From contig NZ_CP121694.1 of assembly GCF_035573695.1 (NCBI RefSeq), positions 534,501 through 598,500 on the forward strand: a DNA stretch of 64,000 nucleotides. Reading direction: 5' to 3'. Position numbers and translations under genes: made by a program. This DNA is from Metallumcola ferriviriculae. Its GTDB lineage: Bacteria; Bacillota; JADQBR01. Numbering within the stretch: the stretch's first letter is position 1; each line of letters starts with the position of its first letter. Below the pieces are notes generated by a model, which saw only the letters and a list, made by a program, of their open reading frames with translations, had not been told where the DNA came from and did not search any database. Below are positions 2,760 through 23,752 of this stretch, piece after piece.

Positions 2760-3515
2760 GTGAATGTTTCAGAACTGTTTTGGAATGCATCATTGGAGGA
2801 GCTTAAATCCGGCTATGTCCGACAGGACAATCACTTTGTCTGTCTGCTCTGCGGCAAGGACTTTGAAAAAGGAATTATTTATTCAGACCAAGGTGTTCTC
2901 TATGAGGCGGAGAGGTATGTTCGTGTTCATATTCAAAGGGAACACCAGTCGGTATTTGATTATCTGATTAAGCTTAATAAAAAGTTTACCGGTATGACAG
3001 AGCATCAGAATAATCTACTGCAGTTATTTTATCAGGGAAAGAGCGATGCAGAAGTACAAAAAGAAATGGGCATTGGCAGTGCATCTACAATACGCAATCA
3101 TCGCTTTGCATTAAAAGAGAAAGAACGTCAGTCAAAAGTATTTTTAGTGCTGATGGAGTTATTAAAAGAACAGGATAAACATGCACCGACTTTTATAAAT
3201 CCTAGAAAAACGGCCCGAATGTTAGATGACAGGTATAACGTTACACAGGAAGAGAGCGAAAAAATATTGAAAAAGTATTTTCCCGAAGGTACGGCTGGGC
3301 GATTAGAGATATTCCCCGCGAAAGAAAAACACAAACTCGTTCTTCTTGGGGAAATTGTTAAAAGGTTTGAACGCGGGAGAAGCTATGACGAAAAGGAAGT
3401 CAACCGAATACTGAAAACTGCTTTTGACGACCATGTTACTTTGAGGCGGTATTTAGTAGAATACGGTTTTTTGGACAGAAAACCAGATGGGAGTCAATAC
3501 TGGTTAAAGGGATAA
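2760..3515 (+). CDS. C2H2-type zinc-finger/HTH/DUF2087 transcriptional regulator
   Basis: This is a predicted cytoplasmic DNA-binding protein of 251 residues. It has an N-terminal metal site, Cys28-x2-Cys31 with His57-x4-His62, and then a LuxR-type helix-turn-helix around residues 78-125 (MTEHQNNLLQLFYQGKS, ASTIRNHR). A linker and a C-terminal DUF2087 domain follow (about 175-250, with VKRFERGRSYDEKEVNRIL and RRYLVEYGFLDR). DUF2087 domains occur with regulators, but their ligand is not known. The start (GTG 2760) follows GGAGGTG. The next gene, 26 bp away, encodes a GIY-YIG protein, so the two probably form an operon behind the palindromic promoter. Confidence 0.75.
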   Translation: MNVSELFWNASLEELKSGYVRQDNHFVCLLCGKDFEKGIIYSDQGVLYEAERYVRVHIQREHQSVFDYLIKLNKKFTGMTEHQNNLLQLFYQGKSDAEVQKEMGIGSASTIRNHRFALKEKERQSKVFLVLMELLKEQDKHAPTFINPRKTARMLDDRYNVTQEESEKILKKYFPEGTAGRLEIFPAKEKHKLVLLGEIVKRFERGRSYDEKEVNRILKTAFDDHVTLRRYLVEYGFLDRKPDGSQYWLKG

Positions 3516-16679: not shown

Positions 16680-16709
16680 TTGACAATAAAGTATGAGGCA
16701 GGGTATAAT
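16680..16709 (+). promoter_or_regulatory. trp operon promoter
   Basis: TTGACA (16680-16685) and TATAAT (16704-16709) with an 18-nt spacer. The transcript would begin near 16716, just before the (G/T)AG repeats. Confidence 0.8.
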
Positions 16710-16727
16710 TACAAAAAATTTGAAGTT

Positions 16728-16794
16728 GAGCTTAGAGAGTTTAGTGGAGTTTGAGTTGAGCCTAGTTGAGAATGTTTAGCAAAGCAGAGTTGAG
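16728..16794 (+). promoter_or_regulatory. TRAP (MtrB) binding site in the trp leader
   Basis: Twelve GAG/TAG triplets start at 16728, 16733, 16737, 16742, 16747, 16753, 16758, 16763, 16768, 16777, 16787 and 16792. The gap at 16773 holds TGT and that at 16782 holds AAG, so the spacing stays near 5 nt throughout. TRAP, an 11-mer ring loaded with tryptophan, wraps RNA with 11 (G/U)AG repeats spaced by 2-3 nt. The match in number, spacing and position before trpE is strong. mtrB itself is not in the window. Confidence 0.88.
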
Positions 16795-16822
16795 TGAAAG
16801 GTAAATGGACTATATCGATTTT

Positions 16823-16854
16823 CCCCAGGAGCCACTTGGTAATGGCAGCTGGGG
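16823..16854 (+). promoter_or_regulatory. trp leader hairpin
   Basis: CCCCAG (16823-16828) pairs with CTGGGG (16849-16854), and inside it GCCA (16831-16834) pairs with TGGC (16843-16846). It lies between the TRAP site and the attenuator and may help fold the leader. Confidence 0.6.
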
Positions 16855-16860
16855 CACTCT

Positions 16861-16925
16861 GGCTTTTGTTAAAAATTCTTTTGGCTGTTAAAGCCGGTAG
16901 GTCTTAATTGACTTGCCGGCTTTTT
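16861..16925 (+). terminator. trp attenuator: terminator with competing pairing
   Basis: AAAGCCGG (16890-16897) pairs with CCGGCTTT (16916-16923), ending in CTTTTTC, as a Rho-independent terminator before trpE. GGCTTT (16861-16866) is complementary to AAAGCC (16890-16895), so an alternative pairing would break the terminator. Tryptophan-bound TRAP on the upstream repeats is expected to favour termination, as in Bacillus (inference for this leader). Confidence 0.75.
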
Positions 16926-16970: not shown

Positions 16971-18557
16971 TTGAAAGATTTAGAAGGTGTTTCAAATTTT
17001 TACCCATGTGCAGGAAGCACGTACCCGTTGGAATTTGACTGCGCGCCCAAATGTTTTCCTGATATAGAGGAATATGTGCGGCAGGCTGGCAGGCAGCAAG
17101 TTGTTCCTGTTTATACGGAAATTAGCCAGGATGAACTAACCCCGGTAACCGTTCTGATGAAGCTGGGGCAGTCGGACCATTCATTTATTTTGGAAAGTGT
17201 GGAAGGAAATGAACAGATTGCCCGTTATTCATTTATCAGCAATGACCCGTATCTGATATTTAGCGCTTCGGGCGGAAATGTGTCTATAGGTACGGCGGAA
17301 GCAAGGGACAGTTTTCCTAACCGTGATTTCAGCTGGAAGAAAAAGGAAAATGCGGAACCGAGACAAGAATTGCAGCAGTTGCTTAATAGCTATACTGCCG
17401 AACCTTCTCCCGACTTACCGCGTTTTTTTGGCGGCGCGGTTGGTTATTTCGGCTTCAATGCGGTGGGTCATTTTGAAGAGGCACTGGCAGGCCTTTCGGG
17501 GCAAACGGAATTTGCTGATGTGCATATGGTTTTTACTAGGTCTGTTTTGGTTTTTGACCACTTAAAAGGTACCGTAAAAATAGTGATCAATACGCTGCCC
17601 GGTGCAGTTCCCCAGCAAACATACAGGCGTGCCCGGGAGCTGATTAAGAAAGTTTTACTCAGATTAAAAAAGAGCGTTAACCTGCCCGCGGTGGAAACAC
17701 AGAAACATGCCGAACCCATTGAATATAAAAGTAATTTTACCAGAGAGGAATTCTACCGGGTAGTGGCCCAGGCAAAGGAATATATCAACAACGGGGATGT
17801 GTTCCAAGTGGTTTTGTCTCAGAAATTCACCCTAGCGGCAGACTTTGACCCATTGGTGCTTTTTCGTTGTCTGCGCGTAGTTAACCCTTCGCCCTACATG
17901 TTTTACTTGAATTGTGGCGGGACGGCTCTTACAGGGGCTTCCCCGGAAATGCTGGTACGCTTGGAGGGGGGAGAGGGAAGTGTTAGACCTATTGCGGGTA
18001 CCAGGCGGCGGGGAAAGGATGGGGATGAAGATAGGTCATTGAGCAAACAATTGGTTGAAGACGAAAAAGAACAGGCAGAACATTTGATGCTGGTCGATTT
18101 AGGTCGCAATGACCTGGGGCGAGTGTGCACTTTTGGTTCGGTTGTGGTGAAAGAATTCGCTAAAGTAGAGTATTTTTCTCATGTAATGCATCTGGTATCA
18201 AGGGTAAAGGGGAAAGTTATGCCTGGGGTAAAGCCGTTGGATGTGTTGGCAGCTGCATTTCCGGCGGGTACTGTGTCCGGTGCGCCAAAAATTAAAGCAG
18301 TGGAAATTATCAACCGACTTGAAAAAGGATGTCGAGGGCCTTATGCGGGTTTGGTGGGGTATATTTCCTTCACCGGACAGATGGACACCTGCATCAATAT
18401 TCGTTCGGTCACCTTATCCGGAGGTAAGGCATTGGTGCAGTCGGGGGCGGGGATTGTGGCGGACTCCCGTCCGGATTCGGAATTTCAGGAGACCTTAAAT
18501 AAGGCCCGGGGAATGTTCGAGGCAATAAGCATGGCCAGGGGTGTGAAAGCAAGGTGA
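16971..18557 (+). CDS. trpE: Anthranilate synthase component I
   Basis: TrpE makes anthranilate from chorismate with ammonia supplied by TrpG, the first step of tryptophan synthesis. The 528-residue protein has the N-terminal tryptophan feedback motif LESVEGNEQIARYSFI (about 74-89). The catalytic chorismate domain shows SPEMLVRLEGG, RPIAGTRRRG, DEKEQAEHLMLVDLGRNDLG, FPAGTVSGAPK and the C-terminal GAGIVADS. It starts at TTG 16971 with GGGAGAGG about 6 nt upstream. It is the first gene of trpEGDCFBA, controlled by the leader described above. Confidence 0.95.
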   Translation: MKDLEGVSNFYPCAGSTYPLEFDCAPKCFPDIEEYVRQAGRQQVVPVYTEISQDELTPVTVLMKLGQSDHSFILESVEGNEQIARYSFISNDPYLIFSASGGNVSIGTAEARDSFPNRDFSWKKKENAEPRQELQQLLNSYTAEPSPDLPRFFGGAVGYFGFNAVGHFEEALAGLSGQTEFADVHMVFTRSVLVFDHLKGTVKIVINTLPGAVPQQTYRRARELIKKVLLRLKKSVNLPAVETQKHAEPIEYKSNFTREEFYRVVAQAKEYINNGDVFQVVLSQKFTLAADFDPLVLFRCLRVVNPSPYMFYLNCGGTALTGASPEMLVRLEGGEGSVRPIAGTRRRGKDGDEDRSLSKQLVEDEKEQAEHLMLVDLGRNDLGRVCTFGSVVVKEFAKVEYFSHVMHLVSRVKGKVMPGVKPLDVLAAAFPAGTVSGAPKIKAVEIINRLEKGCRGPYAGLVGYISFTGQMDTCINIRSVTLSGGKALVQSGAGIVADSRPDSEFQETLNKARGMFEAISMARGVKAR

Positions 18558-19126
18558 GGGTCCTGATAATCGATAATTATGATTCCTTTACTTATAACCT
18601 TGTGCAGATGTTTGGAGAATTGGGCGCTGCGGTAGAGGTAAGGCGTAATGACCGGGTGACTATTACAGAAATAAGAAGGATTCAGCCTCAATGTACGGTG
18701 GTTTCACCCGGACCGGGGCGACCTGAAGATGCGGGTATATCCATCAATATCATTAAGGAATTTTACAAAACCATGCCTATCATGGGGGTATGTTTAGGGC
18801 ATCAGTGCATTGCCGCAGCTATAGGGGGAAGGGTGGAGCGCGGTAGAGGGCCGGTACATGGCAAAGTCTCCTCAGTAGTCCATTCAGGGGAGGGGATTTT
18901 TAAGGGGCTGCCCAATCCCTTTTCTGCAACCAGATATCATTCATTGGTAGTGTTGGAAGAAGGACTATCGCCAGAATTAAGCATTGTTGCCAGGGCTGAA
19001 CTGGGTGAGGTGATGGCGATAAGGCATCTGCATTACCCCCTGTGGGGCCTGCAATTTCACCCAGAATCATTTTCAACCGCAGTTGGTAAAATGCTGATTA
19101 AAAACTTCTTGGCAGTGGTGCAATGA
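18554..19126 (+). CDS. trpG: Anthranilate synthase component II (glutamine amidotransferase)
   Basis: TrpG hydrolyses glutamine and passes ammonia to TrpE. The 190-residue class I amidotransferase has NYDSFTYNL (8-16), SPGPGRPEDAG (51-61), the nucleophile Cys80 in GVCLGHQ, and the His/Glu pair in FHPES near the C-terminus. GTG 18554 overlaps the trpE stop in GTGA, so translation is coupled. Such subunits often also serve PabB for folate, since no separate pabA is visible here. Confidence 0.94.
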   Translation: MRVLIIDNYDSFTYNLVQMFGELGAAVEVRRNDRVTITEIRRIQPQCTVVSPGPGRPEDAGISINIIKEFYKTMPIMGVCLGHQCIAAAIGGRVERGRGPVHGKVSSVVHSGEGIFKGLPNPFSATRYHSLVVLEEGLSPELSIVARAELGEVMAIRHLHYPLWGLQFHPESFSTAVGKMLIKNFLAVVQ

Positions 19127-19186
19127 GATTAGTCCCAGTAATGGGAACGGAGTTTTTTAGCTAAGCGGAGGAGAGGAGAGACCAGT

Positions 19187-20245
19187 ATGCAAAGGACGAT
19201 AAACAAATTAGTGGATGGGCAGCATCTGGATAAAGAAGAGGCCCAAGAGGCTATGAGTTTGATTATGACAAATAGGGTTACCCCTGTTCAGGTGGCTGCT
19301 TTTATTACTGCGTTAAGAATGAAAGGGGAAACTGCCGCTGAAATTACCGGGTGCGCTCTGGCAATGCGTGACGCCGCTATTGCTATCTCCGCCAAATCGC
19401 CGGTAGTTCTTGACACTTGCGGTACCGGTGGGGATCGATTGGGCACATTTAATATTTCTACAGCCGCTGCTTTTGTAGTAGCAGGTGCGGGTGTAACAGT
19501 GGCCAAACACGGTAACCGATCCGTATCGAGTAAGTGTGGTAGTGCGGACGTGCTGGAGGCGCTAGGGGTAAGGGTAGATTTGATCCCTAAGCAGGTGGAA
19601 AAATGTTTGGCAGAAGTAGGCATTGGATTTTTCTTTGCACCTACCTTCCACCATGCCATGAAGTTTGCTGCCGGGCCGCGCCGGGAATTGGGTTTTCGGT
19701 CCATATTCAATTTATTAGGGCCGCTTACCAATCCTGCTGCCGCCGGTTATCAGGTGGTAGGTGTTTACCGCCGTGATGTGGCACCGATACTGGCCCAGGT
19801 GCTGCTGAATATGGGTTCTCAACGGGCTATGGTGGTCCACGGGGAGGATGGTATGGATGAACTTACTCTTACCGGCGCCACTTATATCAGTGAGACACAT
19901 GACGGTGACATTATAAATTATCAAGTTACACCGGAGATGTTTGGTTTGACTCGATGTCTACCCGAGGAGGTAAGCGGGGGAACCGCTAAGGATAATGCCA
20001 TAATCATTAGGCAAATATTTTCCGGCGAGGGAAACCTCGCCCGGCGGCAAATAGTGCTGTTAAATGCGGCCGCAGCTCTTTATGTCTGCGGTAAGGCAAA
20101 GGATTTGCATGATGGAATTCGCTTAGCGGCAGAGGTCATTGAAGGTGGTAAGGCGCTGGCCGTTCTTGATCGGTTGACTGCATTAAGCATTACTCTGCCA
20201 AACCCTGGGCGGGAATCCAAAGCCCTGGGGCACGAGGTGGGTTAA
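19187..20245 (+). CDS. trpD: Anthranilate phosphoribosyltransferase
   Basis: TrpD joins anthranilate to PRPP, giving phosphoribosylanthranilate. The 352-residue protein has the PRPP loop DTCGTGGDRLGTFNIST and KHGNRSVSSKCGSADVLEALG, the GPRRELGFRSIFNLLGPLTNP segment, and VVHGEDGMDELT. It is not fused to TrpG. GGAGAGGAGAG precedes ATG 19187. The 60-nt gap after trpG is the largest spacing in the operon. Confidence 0.95.
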   Translation: MQRTINKLVDGQHLDKEEAQEAMSLIMTNRVTPVQVAAFITALRMKGETAAEITGCALAMRDAAIAISAKSPVVLDTCGTGGDRLGTFNISTAAAFVVAGAGVTVAKHGNRSVSSKCGSADVLEALGVRVDLIPKQVEKCLAEVGIGFFFAPTFHHAMKFAAGPRRELGFRSIFNLLGPLTNPAAAGYQVVGVYRRDVAPILAQVLLNMGSQRAMVVHGEDGMDELTLTGATYISETHDGDIINYQVTPEMFGLTRCLPEEVSGGTAKDNAIIIRQIFSGEGNLARRQIVLLNAAAALYVCGKAKDLHDGIRLAAEVIEGGKALAVLDRLTALSITLPNPGRESKALGHEVG

Positions 20246-20246
20246 A

Positions 20247-21032
20247 ATGAGTGGGTTTCTCAGTGAGATAGTGAAGATAAAAAAGGAAGAAGTTACTCGG
20301 GGATGCAGGGAACTGCCTATTACAGACCTAAAGACAATAATTACTTCAAGAGATTACCAGCCCGGAGCTTTTGTCCATGCCCTGCGCAGCGACGGTTTCA
20401 AGGTAATTGCCGAAGTAAAACAAGCTTCCCCGTCCCGGGGAAGTTTTGAACACCGGTGGGAGAAAAACGAACTAATTAATCAGTATCAACAGGGTGGTGC
20501 AGCTGCCATTTCCGTGATTACCGATGAAAAGTATTTTCAAGGGAGTTATCGCCTGTTAGGTAAAGTGGTGGATCGAACTATTCTGCCGGTACTTCATAAG
20601 GAATTTATTATTGACCCTTGGCAGATTTTGAGAGGGAGGGCAGCCGGTGCCTCGGCGGTATTGTTAATTGCTGCTCTGGTTGATGATGTTATGTTAAAGG
20701 AACTTTATTTAACGGCTAAGAATTTGGGTATGGACTGTCTGCTGGAAGTACATGACCGAAATGAATTGGACCGTATTCTTGGTCTACAGCCAGAGGTTAT
20801 TGGAGTGAATAACCGCAATCTAAAAACCCTTACTGTAAACATTGATACCGCAGTTAGTTTAGCGGCCGAGCTGCCACAAACTGCTGTTAGCATCGCAGAA
20901 AGTGGTATAAAAACCTTCTGCGAAGCCCAGAGATTGGCCGACGCTGGTTACAACGGAGTGCTGATGGGAGAGGCTTTGGTGACCAATGTACAACCAAAGC
21001 AGCTGCTAAAAAAGTTAAGGCAGGTTAGGTAA
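20247..21032 (+). CDS. trpC: Indole-3-glycerol-phosphate synthase
   Basis: TrpC closes the indole ring, making indole-3-glycerol phosphate from CdRP. The 261-residue TIM barrel has VIAEVKQASPSRG (catalytic Lys), AISVITDEKYFQGS, VLHKEFIIDPWQ, LLEVHDRNEL and GVNNRNLKTL, then the phosphate-binding AESGI. The start lies 1 bp after the trpD stop, with GAGGTG inside the end of trpD. Confidence 0.95.
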   Translation: MSGFLSEIVKIKKEEVTRGCRELPITDLKTIITSRDYQPGAFVHALRSDGFKVIAEVKQASPSRGSFEHRWEKNELINQYQQGGAAAISVITDEKYFQGSYRLLGKVVDRTILPVLHKEFIIDPWQILRGRAAGASAVLLIAALVDDVMLKELYLTAKNLGMDCLLEVHDRNELDRILGLQPEVIGVNNRNLKTLTVNIDTAVSLAAELPQTAVSIAESGIKTFCEAQRLADAGYNGVLMGEALVTNVQPKQLLKKLRQVR

Positions 21033-21721
21033 TGGTTAAGCCAGTTGTAAAAATCTGCGGTATCACTACGGCGGCTCAGGCTAAAATGGTTTCAACGGCC
21101 GGGGCCGACGCTATAGGGTTGGTTTTTGCAAAGCAAAGTACCCGCTTTGTTTCTCGGCAGCAGGCTAGTACAATCAGCCAAATGGTAGACAATGACACTT
21201 CGGTTGTTGGCGTTTTTTGCAATGATTCGGAAGAAGTGGTGGCGGCAGCAGCAGACTTTGTATCATTGAGTGCTGTTCAACTTCATGGAAATGAGTCCCC
21301 GGATTACTGTCGTCGGTTGCGTGAAAAGATGCATCTGGTTGAAAAGGGCTGCTGGCCAATGCTGGTTAAGGCTGTTCCCGTGCGCGGAGTCGAAACCTTG
21401 GAACAGGTTAAGCCTTATTTGCATTTAGTAGATGCGATAATGTTAGATACCTATCACCGGGGGCGGTTGGGGGGGACGGGAATGCAGTTTGATTGGCATG
21501 TGGCGGTTGAGTTTAACCGCCTGTGGCCGGAAAAAACACTCTTGATTGCCGGAGGTTTGAATGGTGTAAATGTGGGGACTTTGCTTGCCAGAATTAACCC
21601 TTGGGGGGTAGATGTGTCTTCCGGAGTGGAGGCGTATCCCGGGCAAAAAAGCCCGGAAAAGGTTTCGGCTTTTATCAAGCAGGTAAAAAAGGGCATAGAT
21701 GAGGGGGAAGGACAGTGTTAA
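21032..21721 (+). CDS. trpF: Phosphoribosylanthranilate isomerase
   Basis: TrpF performs the Amadori rearrangement of phosphoribosylanthranilate to CdRP. The 229-residue TIM barrel starts [13 protein letters not shown] with the catalytic Cys in KICG, then shows [42 protein letters not shown] and [10 protein letters not shown] ending in [14 protein letters not shown]. The ATG overlaps the trpC stop by 1 nt. Confidence 0.95.
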
Positions 21722-22959
21722 CTAAAGACTTACTAATGGATAAACCGCTTAAGGGTTACTTTGGTCATTATGGCGGGCAGTATGTGCCGGAAACTTTGGT
21801 TTCCGCCCTTACGGAGTTGGAAAAAGCATATGAGTATTACACTGCCCAAAAAGAATTTTGGGCGGAGCTTAACAGCTATTACCGGGACTATAGCGGTCGG
21901 CCTACACCGTTGTTTCTTGCGCCCCGCCTATCAGAGCATTATTCCGCTGAGGACCTCAAGTTAAAAATCTATCTCAAACGTGAGGATCTAAACCATACGG
22001 GTGCGCACAAGATAAACAACGCTTTGGGTCAGGTACTGTTGGCTAAAAGGATGGGCAAGCAGCGCATCATTGCGGAGACGGGTGCGGGCCAGCATGGTGT
22101 TGCCACTGCCACGGTAGCCGCCCATTTTGACATGAAATGCTGTATTTACATGGGGGCGGTGGATATGCAGCGCCAAGCACTGAATGTATATAAGATGAGA
22201 TTATTGGGTGCTGAGGTAATTCCGGCAACCGGCGGCACCCAGACTTTAAAGGATGCCTGTAATGAGGCCATCAGGGATTGGGTGGCGAATTCATTAGATA
22301 CCCATTACATTATTGGGTCTGTGGTAGGCCCGCATCCGTATCCAGTTATGGTACGAGACTTTCAGCGGGTGATTGGCGAAGAGACAAAAGATCAGATTAT
22401 TACTAAGGAAGGCCGACTGCCGGATATCATTGCTGCCTGCGTCGGCGGTGGAAGCAACGCCATGGGCATGTTTTATCCTTTTCTTCAGGAAGAAGAAGTA
22501 AAGCTGGTAGGTTTAGAAGCAGCGGGAGAGGGCTTGGAAAGCGGGCGGCATGCAGCGTCTTTAAGCCGAGGGAGGCAAGGAGTGCTGCATGGGGCGTTCA
22601 GTTACTTACTGCAAAACGATGACGGTCAAATTGAAGAAGCTCACTCCATTTCCGCAGGGTTGGATTACCCGGGAGTGGGGCCGGAACATTCCATGCTGAA
22701 GGATTCCGGTCGAGTGAAGTATTTGGGGGTCCAGGACCAAGCTGCATTAGCGGCATTTCACCAGCTAACTAAACTAGAAGGAATAATTCCTGCTTTGGAG
22801 AGTGCCCATGCCTTGGCTTTTTTAGAAGAACTGAAAAGTTTTATTCCCCGAGACGCAGAAAAGGAGACGATTGTCGTCATCAATTTGTCCGGCCGAGGGG
22901 ACAAAGATATTGATACAGTCAGGGAGGAGGCAGGTCATGAGCAGCATAATGGAGCATAG
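21715..22959 (+). CDS. trpB: Tryptophan synthase beta subunit
   Basis: TrpB condenses indole with serine in a PLP reaction. The 414-residue protein has [13 protein letters not shown], the Schiff-base Lys in [13 protein letters not shown], the cofactor phosphate loop [10 protein letters not shown], and the C-terminal [11 protein letters not shown] 21715 follows GGGGGAAGGA and overlaps trpF by 7 nt. ATG 21736 would also match the family start. It is the standard TrpB1 type and lies beside trpA. Confidence 0.95.
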
Positions 22960-23752
22960 TCGTTTGGAAACTGCGCTGGATGGTGCCCGGAGGAGGGATC
23001 GGAGAGTCTTTATGCCTTTTATTACCGCAGGGGACCCGCACCTTGATCGTACAGAAGAATTAGTTGCTGCTATGCGGCGGGGTGGGGCAGACATTATTGA
23101 GTTGGGTGTCCCTTTTTCTGACCCTTTGGCAGACGGTCCTGTTATTCAGCGAGCATCCAGCAGAGCGTTAAAAAATGGTACAACTATGCGGCAGATACTG
23201 GATTTGGCAGGACGGATGCGGGGTAATGGGACATTGGGAGCGACGCCGCTGGTACTTTTGCTTTACTATAACACTGTTTATGTCTATGGTGAGGAGAGGT
23301 TCGCCCGAGACGCAGCAGCAGCCGGCGTAGATGGTGTAGTTATACCCGACCTGCCGTTGGAAGCGGGAGGTTCACTGCGGAGTATGTGTAATAAAACGGG
23401 ATTAACCATGATTGCTATCGTTACTCCAACTACCTCCGTAGATAGAATAAAGATGATTACAGATAATGCTGAAGGGTTTATTTATTATACCGCGGTCACC
23501 GGTGTTACTGGCATACGGGAAGGGCTTCGTCAAGAGTTGATGGGTGAAATTAAGCAGTTAAAACAGCTTACAAACCTGCCCGTATTACTAGGCTTTGGTA
23601 TCAGTAACAGTCAACAGGCGCGGCAGGCAGCGGCGTTTGCAGACGGTATTATCATGGGTAGTGCATTGGTGGAATTAATCGAAAACAGCCTAGGGTCTGA
23701 AATGCCAAAGCTGATAGAAAGATTCGTGAGGGAGATCAAGCAAGTAATTTAA
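22937..23752 (+). CDS. trpA: Tryptophan synthase alpha subunit
   Basis: TrpA cleaves indole-3-glycerol phosphate to indole, which is channelled to TrpB. The 271-residue TIM barrel has [10 protein letters not shown] (catalytic Glu/Asp partner in [19 protein letters not shown]), [21 protein letters not shown] and LLGFGIS. ATG 22937 sits 6 nt after GGAGGAGG and 23 nt inside trpB, so translation is coupled. It is the last gene of the operon. Only a weak hairpin follows. Confidence 0.95.

Follow-up and report, generated by a model that had tools for sequence, protein, structure and literature searches.

A probable TRAP-controlled attenuator heads the trp operon of Metallumcola ferriviriculae, with a predicted long-range antiterminator

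How does Metallumcola ferriviriculae match transcription of its trp operon to the supply of tryptophan? The question is raised by a run of GAG/TAG triplets ahead of trpE in the 64-kb window (the whole stretch of 64,000 nucleotides analysed here), which a sequence-only reading had attributed to the tryptophan-sensing protein TRAP, described there as best known in Bacillus while many Clostridia use T-boxes for trp. Our analysis makes it very probable that this leader is a TRAP-controlled transcription attenuator of the trp operon. The array, the promoter, the terminator, the operon and an mtrB gene coding for TRAP are all present, and tryptophan-dependent binding of TRAP, together with the direction of control, would follow by analogy with Bacillus. 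Table 1 lists the features of the locus.

Table 1. Features of the trp operon leader and neighbouring genes (positions within the window)
Feature	Position	Strand	Details
Promoter	16680-16709	+	TTGACA 16680-16685, 18-nt spacer, TATAAT 16704-16709; 12/12 consensus matches
TRAP-binding array (predicted)	16728-16794	+	12 GAG/UAG triplets, AAG at 16782, degenerate triplet at about 16772; mtrB in genome
Outer antiterminator helix (predicted), 5' strand, inside array	16754-16764	+	pairs with 16898-16909; 11 bp, one bulge
Inner antiterminator helix (predicted), 5' strand, 3' part of array	16768-16790	+	pairs with 16856-16880; 22 bp, interrupted
Short ORF, ending at the terminator	16805-16891	+	28 codons; AAAGG just 3 nt ahead of AUG
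Spacer hairpin, inside inner helix	16823-16854	+	CCCCAG...CUGGGG
Intrinsic terminator (attenuator)	16890-16923	+	14-bp stem, 6-nt loop, then UUCUAAUUAU
trpE	16971-18557	+	first structural gene; TTG start
trpG, trpD, trpC, trpF, trpB, trpA	18554-23752	+	trpB and trpD confirmed; the remaining genes assigned from sequence and gene order
Possible second TRAP site over trpD ribosome-binding site	19158-19180	+	UAG, AAG, GAG, GAG, GAG; weak here

The triplet array and its binding protein

The array had been described as at least twelve triplets with about 5-nt periodicity, and twelve non-overlapping GAG/UAG (KAG) triplets were indeed counted, in exactly the place given, starting at 16728, 16733, 16737, 16742, 16747, 16753, 16758, 16763, 16768, 16777, 16787 and 16792. 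A thirteenth canonical triplet, at 16735, overlaps its neighbours, and the two degenerate triplets that were proposed to hold the phase, an AUG near 16772 and an AAG at 16782, do so. The longest chain at 4-6 nt spacing contains nine triplets, or twelve if one skip is permitted, and among 5000 dinucleotide-shuffled versions of the 302-nt leader not one attained either length; the best chain in the remainder of the window, counting both strands, is three, or four with skips. When only the 67-nt array was shuffled, 1/5000 and 0/5000 sequences attained the observed run lengths, indicating that the phase and the composition of the array are both non-random. With twelve triplets separated by spacers of mostly 2 nt, the leader also resembles known TRAP sites, which hold about 9-11 or more NAG triplets, mostly GAG/UAG, 2-3 nt apart. 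The array is almost certainly the RNA binding site for the TRAP ring.

A search of the window's own genome with PF02081 returned a single match (C1:3275699-3275899, minus strand, E 2e-40), a 75-aa MtrB/TRAP protein that scores 139.7 bits against PF02081 (cut-off 21.3) and 142.7 bits against NF009724 (cut-off 117). The sequence-only reading had called for an mtrB product of about 75 aa and had named its absence as the result that would speak against TRAP, and this objection falls away. Alignment with solved TRAPs showed that all six RNA-contacting residues (F32, E36, K37, D39, K56 and R58 in B. subtilis numbering, as listed in PMC3184956) are kept. The Rfam T-box model RF00230 had no match at gathering score in the window, nor did any other Rfam family, and the 16 T-box matches elsewhere in the genome include none at the trp operon. 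An encoded mtrB, conserved RNA-binding residues and a window free of Rfam T-boxes together support the assignment of this leader to TRAP. The view that such control is chiefly a Bacillus trait fared less well: TRAP is not rare in this phylum, where mtrB was found in 200 of the 398 genomes sampled. Anti-TRAP (PF15777), which is not a defining part of the system, was searched for and none was found.

The array was correctly placed between promoter and trpE. Spacing from the promoter puts the transcription start near 16716, about 12 nt ahead of the array, which leaves no room for a 5' stem-loop before the first triplet. In B. subtilis such a stem-loop contributes to TRAP binding, although it is not required of a member of this class. 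The intrinsic terminator, with a strength of -21.5 kcal/mol, begins about 95 nt past the array and, as expected of a TRAP attenuator, sits between the array and the first gene.

These features allow comparison with known leaders. As in the B. subtilis trpEDCFBA leader, a GAG/UAG array lies between promoter and trpE, mtrB is present and a terminator follows; the array here is also predicted to be able to form an antiterminator. The B. subtilis leader is 203 nt long with a weak attenuator at +108 to +133 (-12.6 kcal/mol; PMC3913778), whereas the terminator here starts 95 nt after the array and is stronger, the antiterminator is predicted to act over a long range, with an inner helix distinct from the outer one, and the 5' stem-loop and a detectable anti-TRAP are lacking. 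The remark that the array exceeds the 11 sites of the ring is right as to the count but does not put it out of range, given that B. halodurans combines a leader of 19 NAG triplets with a 12-subunit TRAP ring (PMC3184956). The present leader resembles that system in that more than 11 triplets precede trpE, and its MtrB carries Thr at the residue-72 position as does the 12-mer; it differs in that its triplets are 12 canonical ones and not 19 NAG, and at the other ring-size position, residue 15, it has Leu, as in the 11-subunit ring, rather than Lys. With the T-box trp operons of Firmicutes it would share terminator/antiterminator logic 5' of the trp genes, but not a T-box match.

Predicted antiterminator and alternative modes of control

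To predict an antiterminator, we folded the nascent RNA as far as the loop of the terminator. In the predicted fold, the array pairs through an outer helix with the terminator and through an inner helix with the spacer (Table 1), and the same architecture is predicted in three genera of one order, those of the window and of the relatives G001 and G002. The outer helix is CUGAGUCGAG with CUCGAUUCGG in G001, together with a roughly 20-bp inner helix, and GUUGAGUUGAGA with UCUCAAUUUAAU in G002, accompanied by inner helices. The outer-helix bases differ in each of the three leaders, and where the core of the inner helix can be aligned, two compensatory changes were counted by eye: U-A to G-U from the window to G001 and A-U to C-G from the window to G002. 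Nascent pairing between the array and the 5' arm and loop of the terminator was equalled by only 7, 7 and 5 of 200 shuffled arrays (window, G001 and G002, respectively), the real arrays exceeding about 96% of these. Taken at its simplest, the duplex between array and terminator in the window was no better than with 139 other terminators (P 0.26-0.48), although the in-context fold was significant. Swapping terminators between leaders as a check of antiterminator specificity gave no discrimination, and such swaps are uninformative because the arrays are all alike and many terminators share the element CUCAUUU. This loop-side element is frequent in the trpE-leader terminators of the phylum and is able to pair with GAUGAG of the array. 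A long-range antiterminator overlapping both array and terminator is likely on the strength of these predicted folds.

In regards to the full-length transcripts, predicted terminator occupancy in G001 rises from 0.00 with the array free to 0.93 with the array blocked, and in G002 from 0.69 to 0.89, whereas in the window it is 0.96 either way. For the window, the fully formed terminator is predicted to prevail at equilibrium with the array free or blocked alike (-74.5 versus -58.0 kcal/mol), and control in this leader would therefore have to be kinetic or to use another step.

The switch would then operate as follows. With plentiful tryptophan, the MtrB ring would wrap the nascent array and keep it from pairing downstream, dissolving both the outer and the inner antiterminator helices, so that the terminator would form and transcription would end ahead of trpE. 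With scarce tryptophan, the free array would form the long-range antiterminator, its outer helix engaging the terminator 5' arm and loop and its inner helix the spacer; this would delay or block the terminator and let RNA polymerase read through into trpEGDCFBA. The switch in the window would be kinetic rather than at equilibrium, and that of G001 is predicted to be complete at equilibrium.

Attenuation of this kind has to be weighed against other ways in which the array could act. TRAP could bind the array and work by direct termination (forward translocation of the polymerase) or on translation, without any exchange between antiterminator and terminator. Consistent with this, B. subtilis TRAP is able to terminate without the attenuator hairpin (PMC3913778), and the window's terminator is predicted to prevail at equilibrium irrespective of TRAP. 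However, so strong a terminator needs no helper, the predicted pairing of array with terminator is common to three genera, and the end of the array lies about 165 nt from the trpE Shine-Dalgarno (SD) sequence, which is too distant for direct blocking. We consider this direct mode of action rather unlikely. A role for the 28-codon leader ORF, whose translation TRAP would block and whose ribosome would otherwise prevent the terminator, is suggested by an AUG 10 nt past the last GAG and by a stop codon that shares nucleotides with the beginning of the terminator stem. Yet about a quarter of random stretches are open for 28 codons, and because the SD is poorly spaced and none of start codon, frame and peptide is conserved in G001 or G002, we dropped this leader-peptide mechanism as very improbable.

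Some simple repeats elsewhere in the phylum fit the same pattern, among them runs of GAGCA in G105 and G396, and bring to mind that the triplets might be a product of chance or a purine-rich stretch of low complexity that regulates nothing. Set against the shuffling results, the site between promoter and attenuator, the mtrB gene in the genome and the arrays at the trp operon head of both relatives, this explanation is scarcely credible here. TRAP-controlled attenuation through a long-range antiterminator is the reading that we carry forward.

TRAP arrays in relatives, in the phylum and at further genes

All three genomes of the order (those of the window, G001 and G002) contain mtrB, and the trp operons of G001 and G002 are likewise headed by an array and a terminator. 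The G001 and G002 leaders additionally have a second terminator-like hairpin with a U-run directly after the array and ahead of the main terminator, and may represent tandem attenuators. The G001 operon is headed by a single 796-aa ORF in which trpE and a DAHP-synthase-like (aroF) domain are fused (L060 2313-4703, minus strand).

We sought perfect six-triplet arrays in the same 398 genomes and screened the returned loci for the downstream gene. The largest group lies upstream of trpE, and others precede trpB2, trpP, trpD, trpB, a TrpG-like gene and aroF, with some loci left without assignment. In other array-bearing trpE leaders of the phylum the array is just 5' of an intrinsic terminator. 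A family represented by G024 and G218 has long array-terminator spacers (about 160-260 nt) upstream of trpE, and array-terminator pairing is weak there. Upstream of pabA/pabB-like genes, several genomes have GAG triplets and, after them, a conserved GACGACUCGGAG..GGGGUGAG element and a terminator; the folate branch could in this way have a TRAP attenuator as well.

In the window's own genome, an array of nine GAG/UAG triplets extends over both the SD and the start codon of trpB2 (C1:2941240-2941340, L062 minus strand), a gene identified by its match to TIGR01415/NF009057 and a likely translational target of TRAP. A trpP-like tryptophan transporter gene (PF17099) has two KAG clusters, which lie upstream of its SD and over it (C1:1562664-1562761; positions 3165-3206 and about 3235-3262 of locus L061). 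The array over the trpD ribosome-binding site, weak in the window, is stronger in the relatives, with six triplets each in G001 and G002.

B. subtilis TRAP represses translation of trpG and trpP, the latter being a known TRAP target, and the arrays found here close upstream of trpP and over the trpB2 SD and start codon are similar in this respect. In contrast, the literature covered does not list trpB2 or trpD as TRAP targets in B. subtilis, where a control search also gave no trpB2 hit. As a test of translational control, we compared the stretch just 5' of trpB2 and of trpD between genomes with and without mtrB (Mann-Whitney test, kinship ignored). With kinship thus left out of account, KAG arrays are far more abundant in mtrB-positive genomes, both at trpB2 (39 genomes with mtrB compared with 32 without, p = 3e-12) and at trpD (45 compared with 26, p = 6e-7). 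Four triplets were reached by only 2/864 and 0/688 background tiles of these loci, and by 1/68 and 0/31 of the other SD-preceded ORF starts. Among the genomes that were scored as mtrB-negative and have strong trpB2 arrays, two, G041 and G083, have mtrB-positive family members, so that the gene is possibly missing from their assemblies.

The TRAP switch thus probably has extra target genes here. On balance, we lean towards the view that across a large share of the Firmicutes outside Bacillus the TRAP regulon is wider than that of B. subtilis, with trpE controlled through a two-helix long-range antiterminator (in the window's family) and with the ribosome-binding sites of trpB2 and trpD covered. 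The openly searchable literature yielded no description of TRAP in this group or of TRAP with trpB2 or trpD; subscription journals lay outside this search and may hold an earlier description. The long-range antiterminator and the trpB2 and trpD targets may accordingly be the parts that are new.

In essence this is a known kind of switch that is used outside Bacillus with an unusually long-range predicted RNA fold. TRAP is no longer a Bacillus speciality, with about half of the sampled genomes of another Firmicutes phylum using it. The long-range antiterminator comes with complete sequence predictions that are directly testable by compensatory mutants. As likely targets of TRAP at the level of translation, trpB2 and trpD would explain how a free-standing TrpB-like gene and a gene inside the operon are kept in step with the tryptophan supply. 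If the wider regulon is true, one ring would set both readthrough into the operon and the translation of individual genes.
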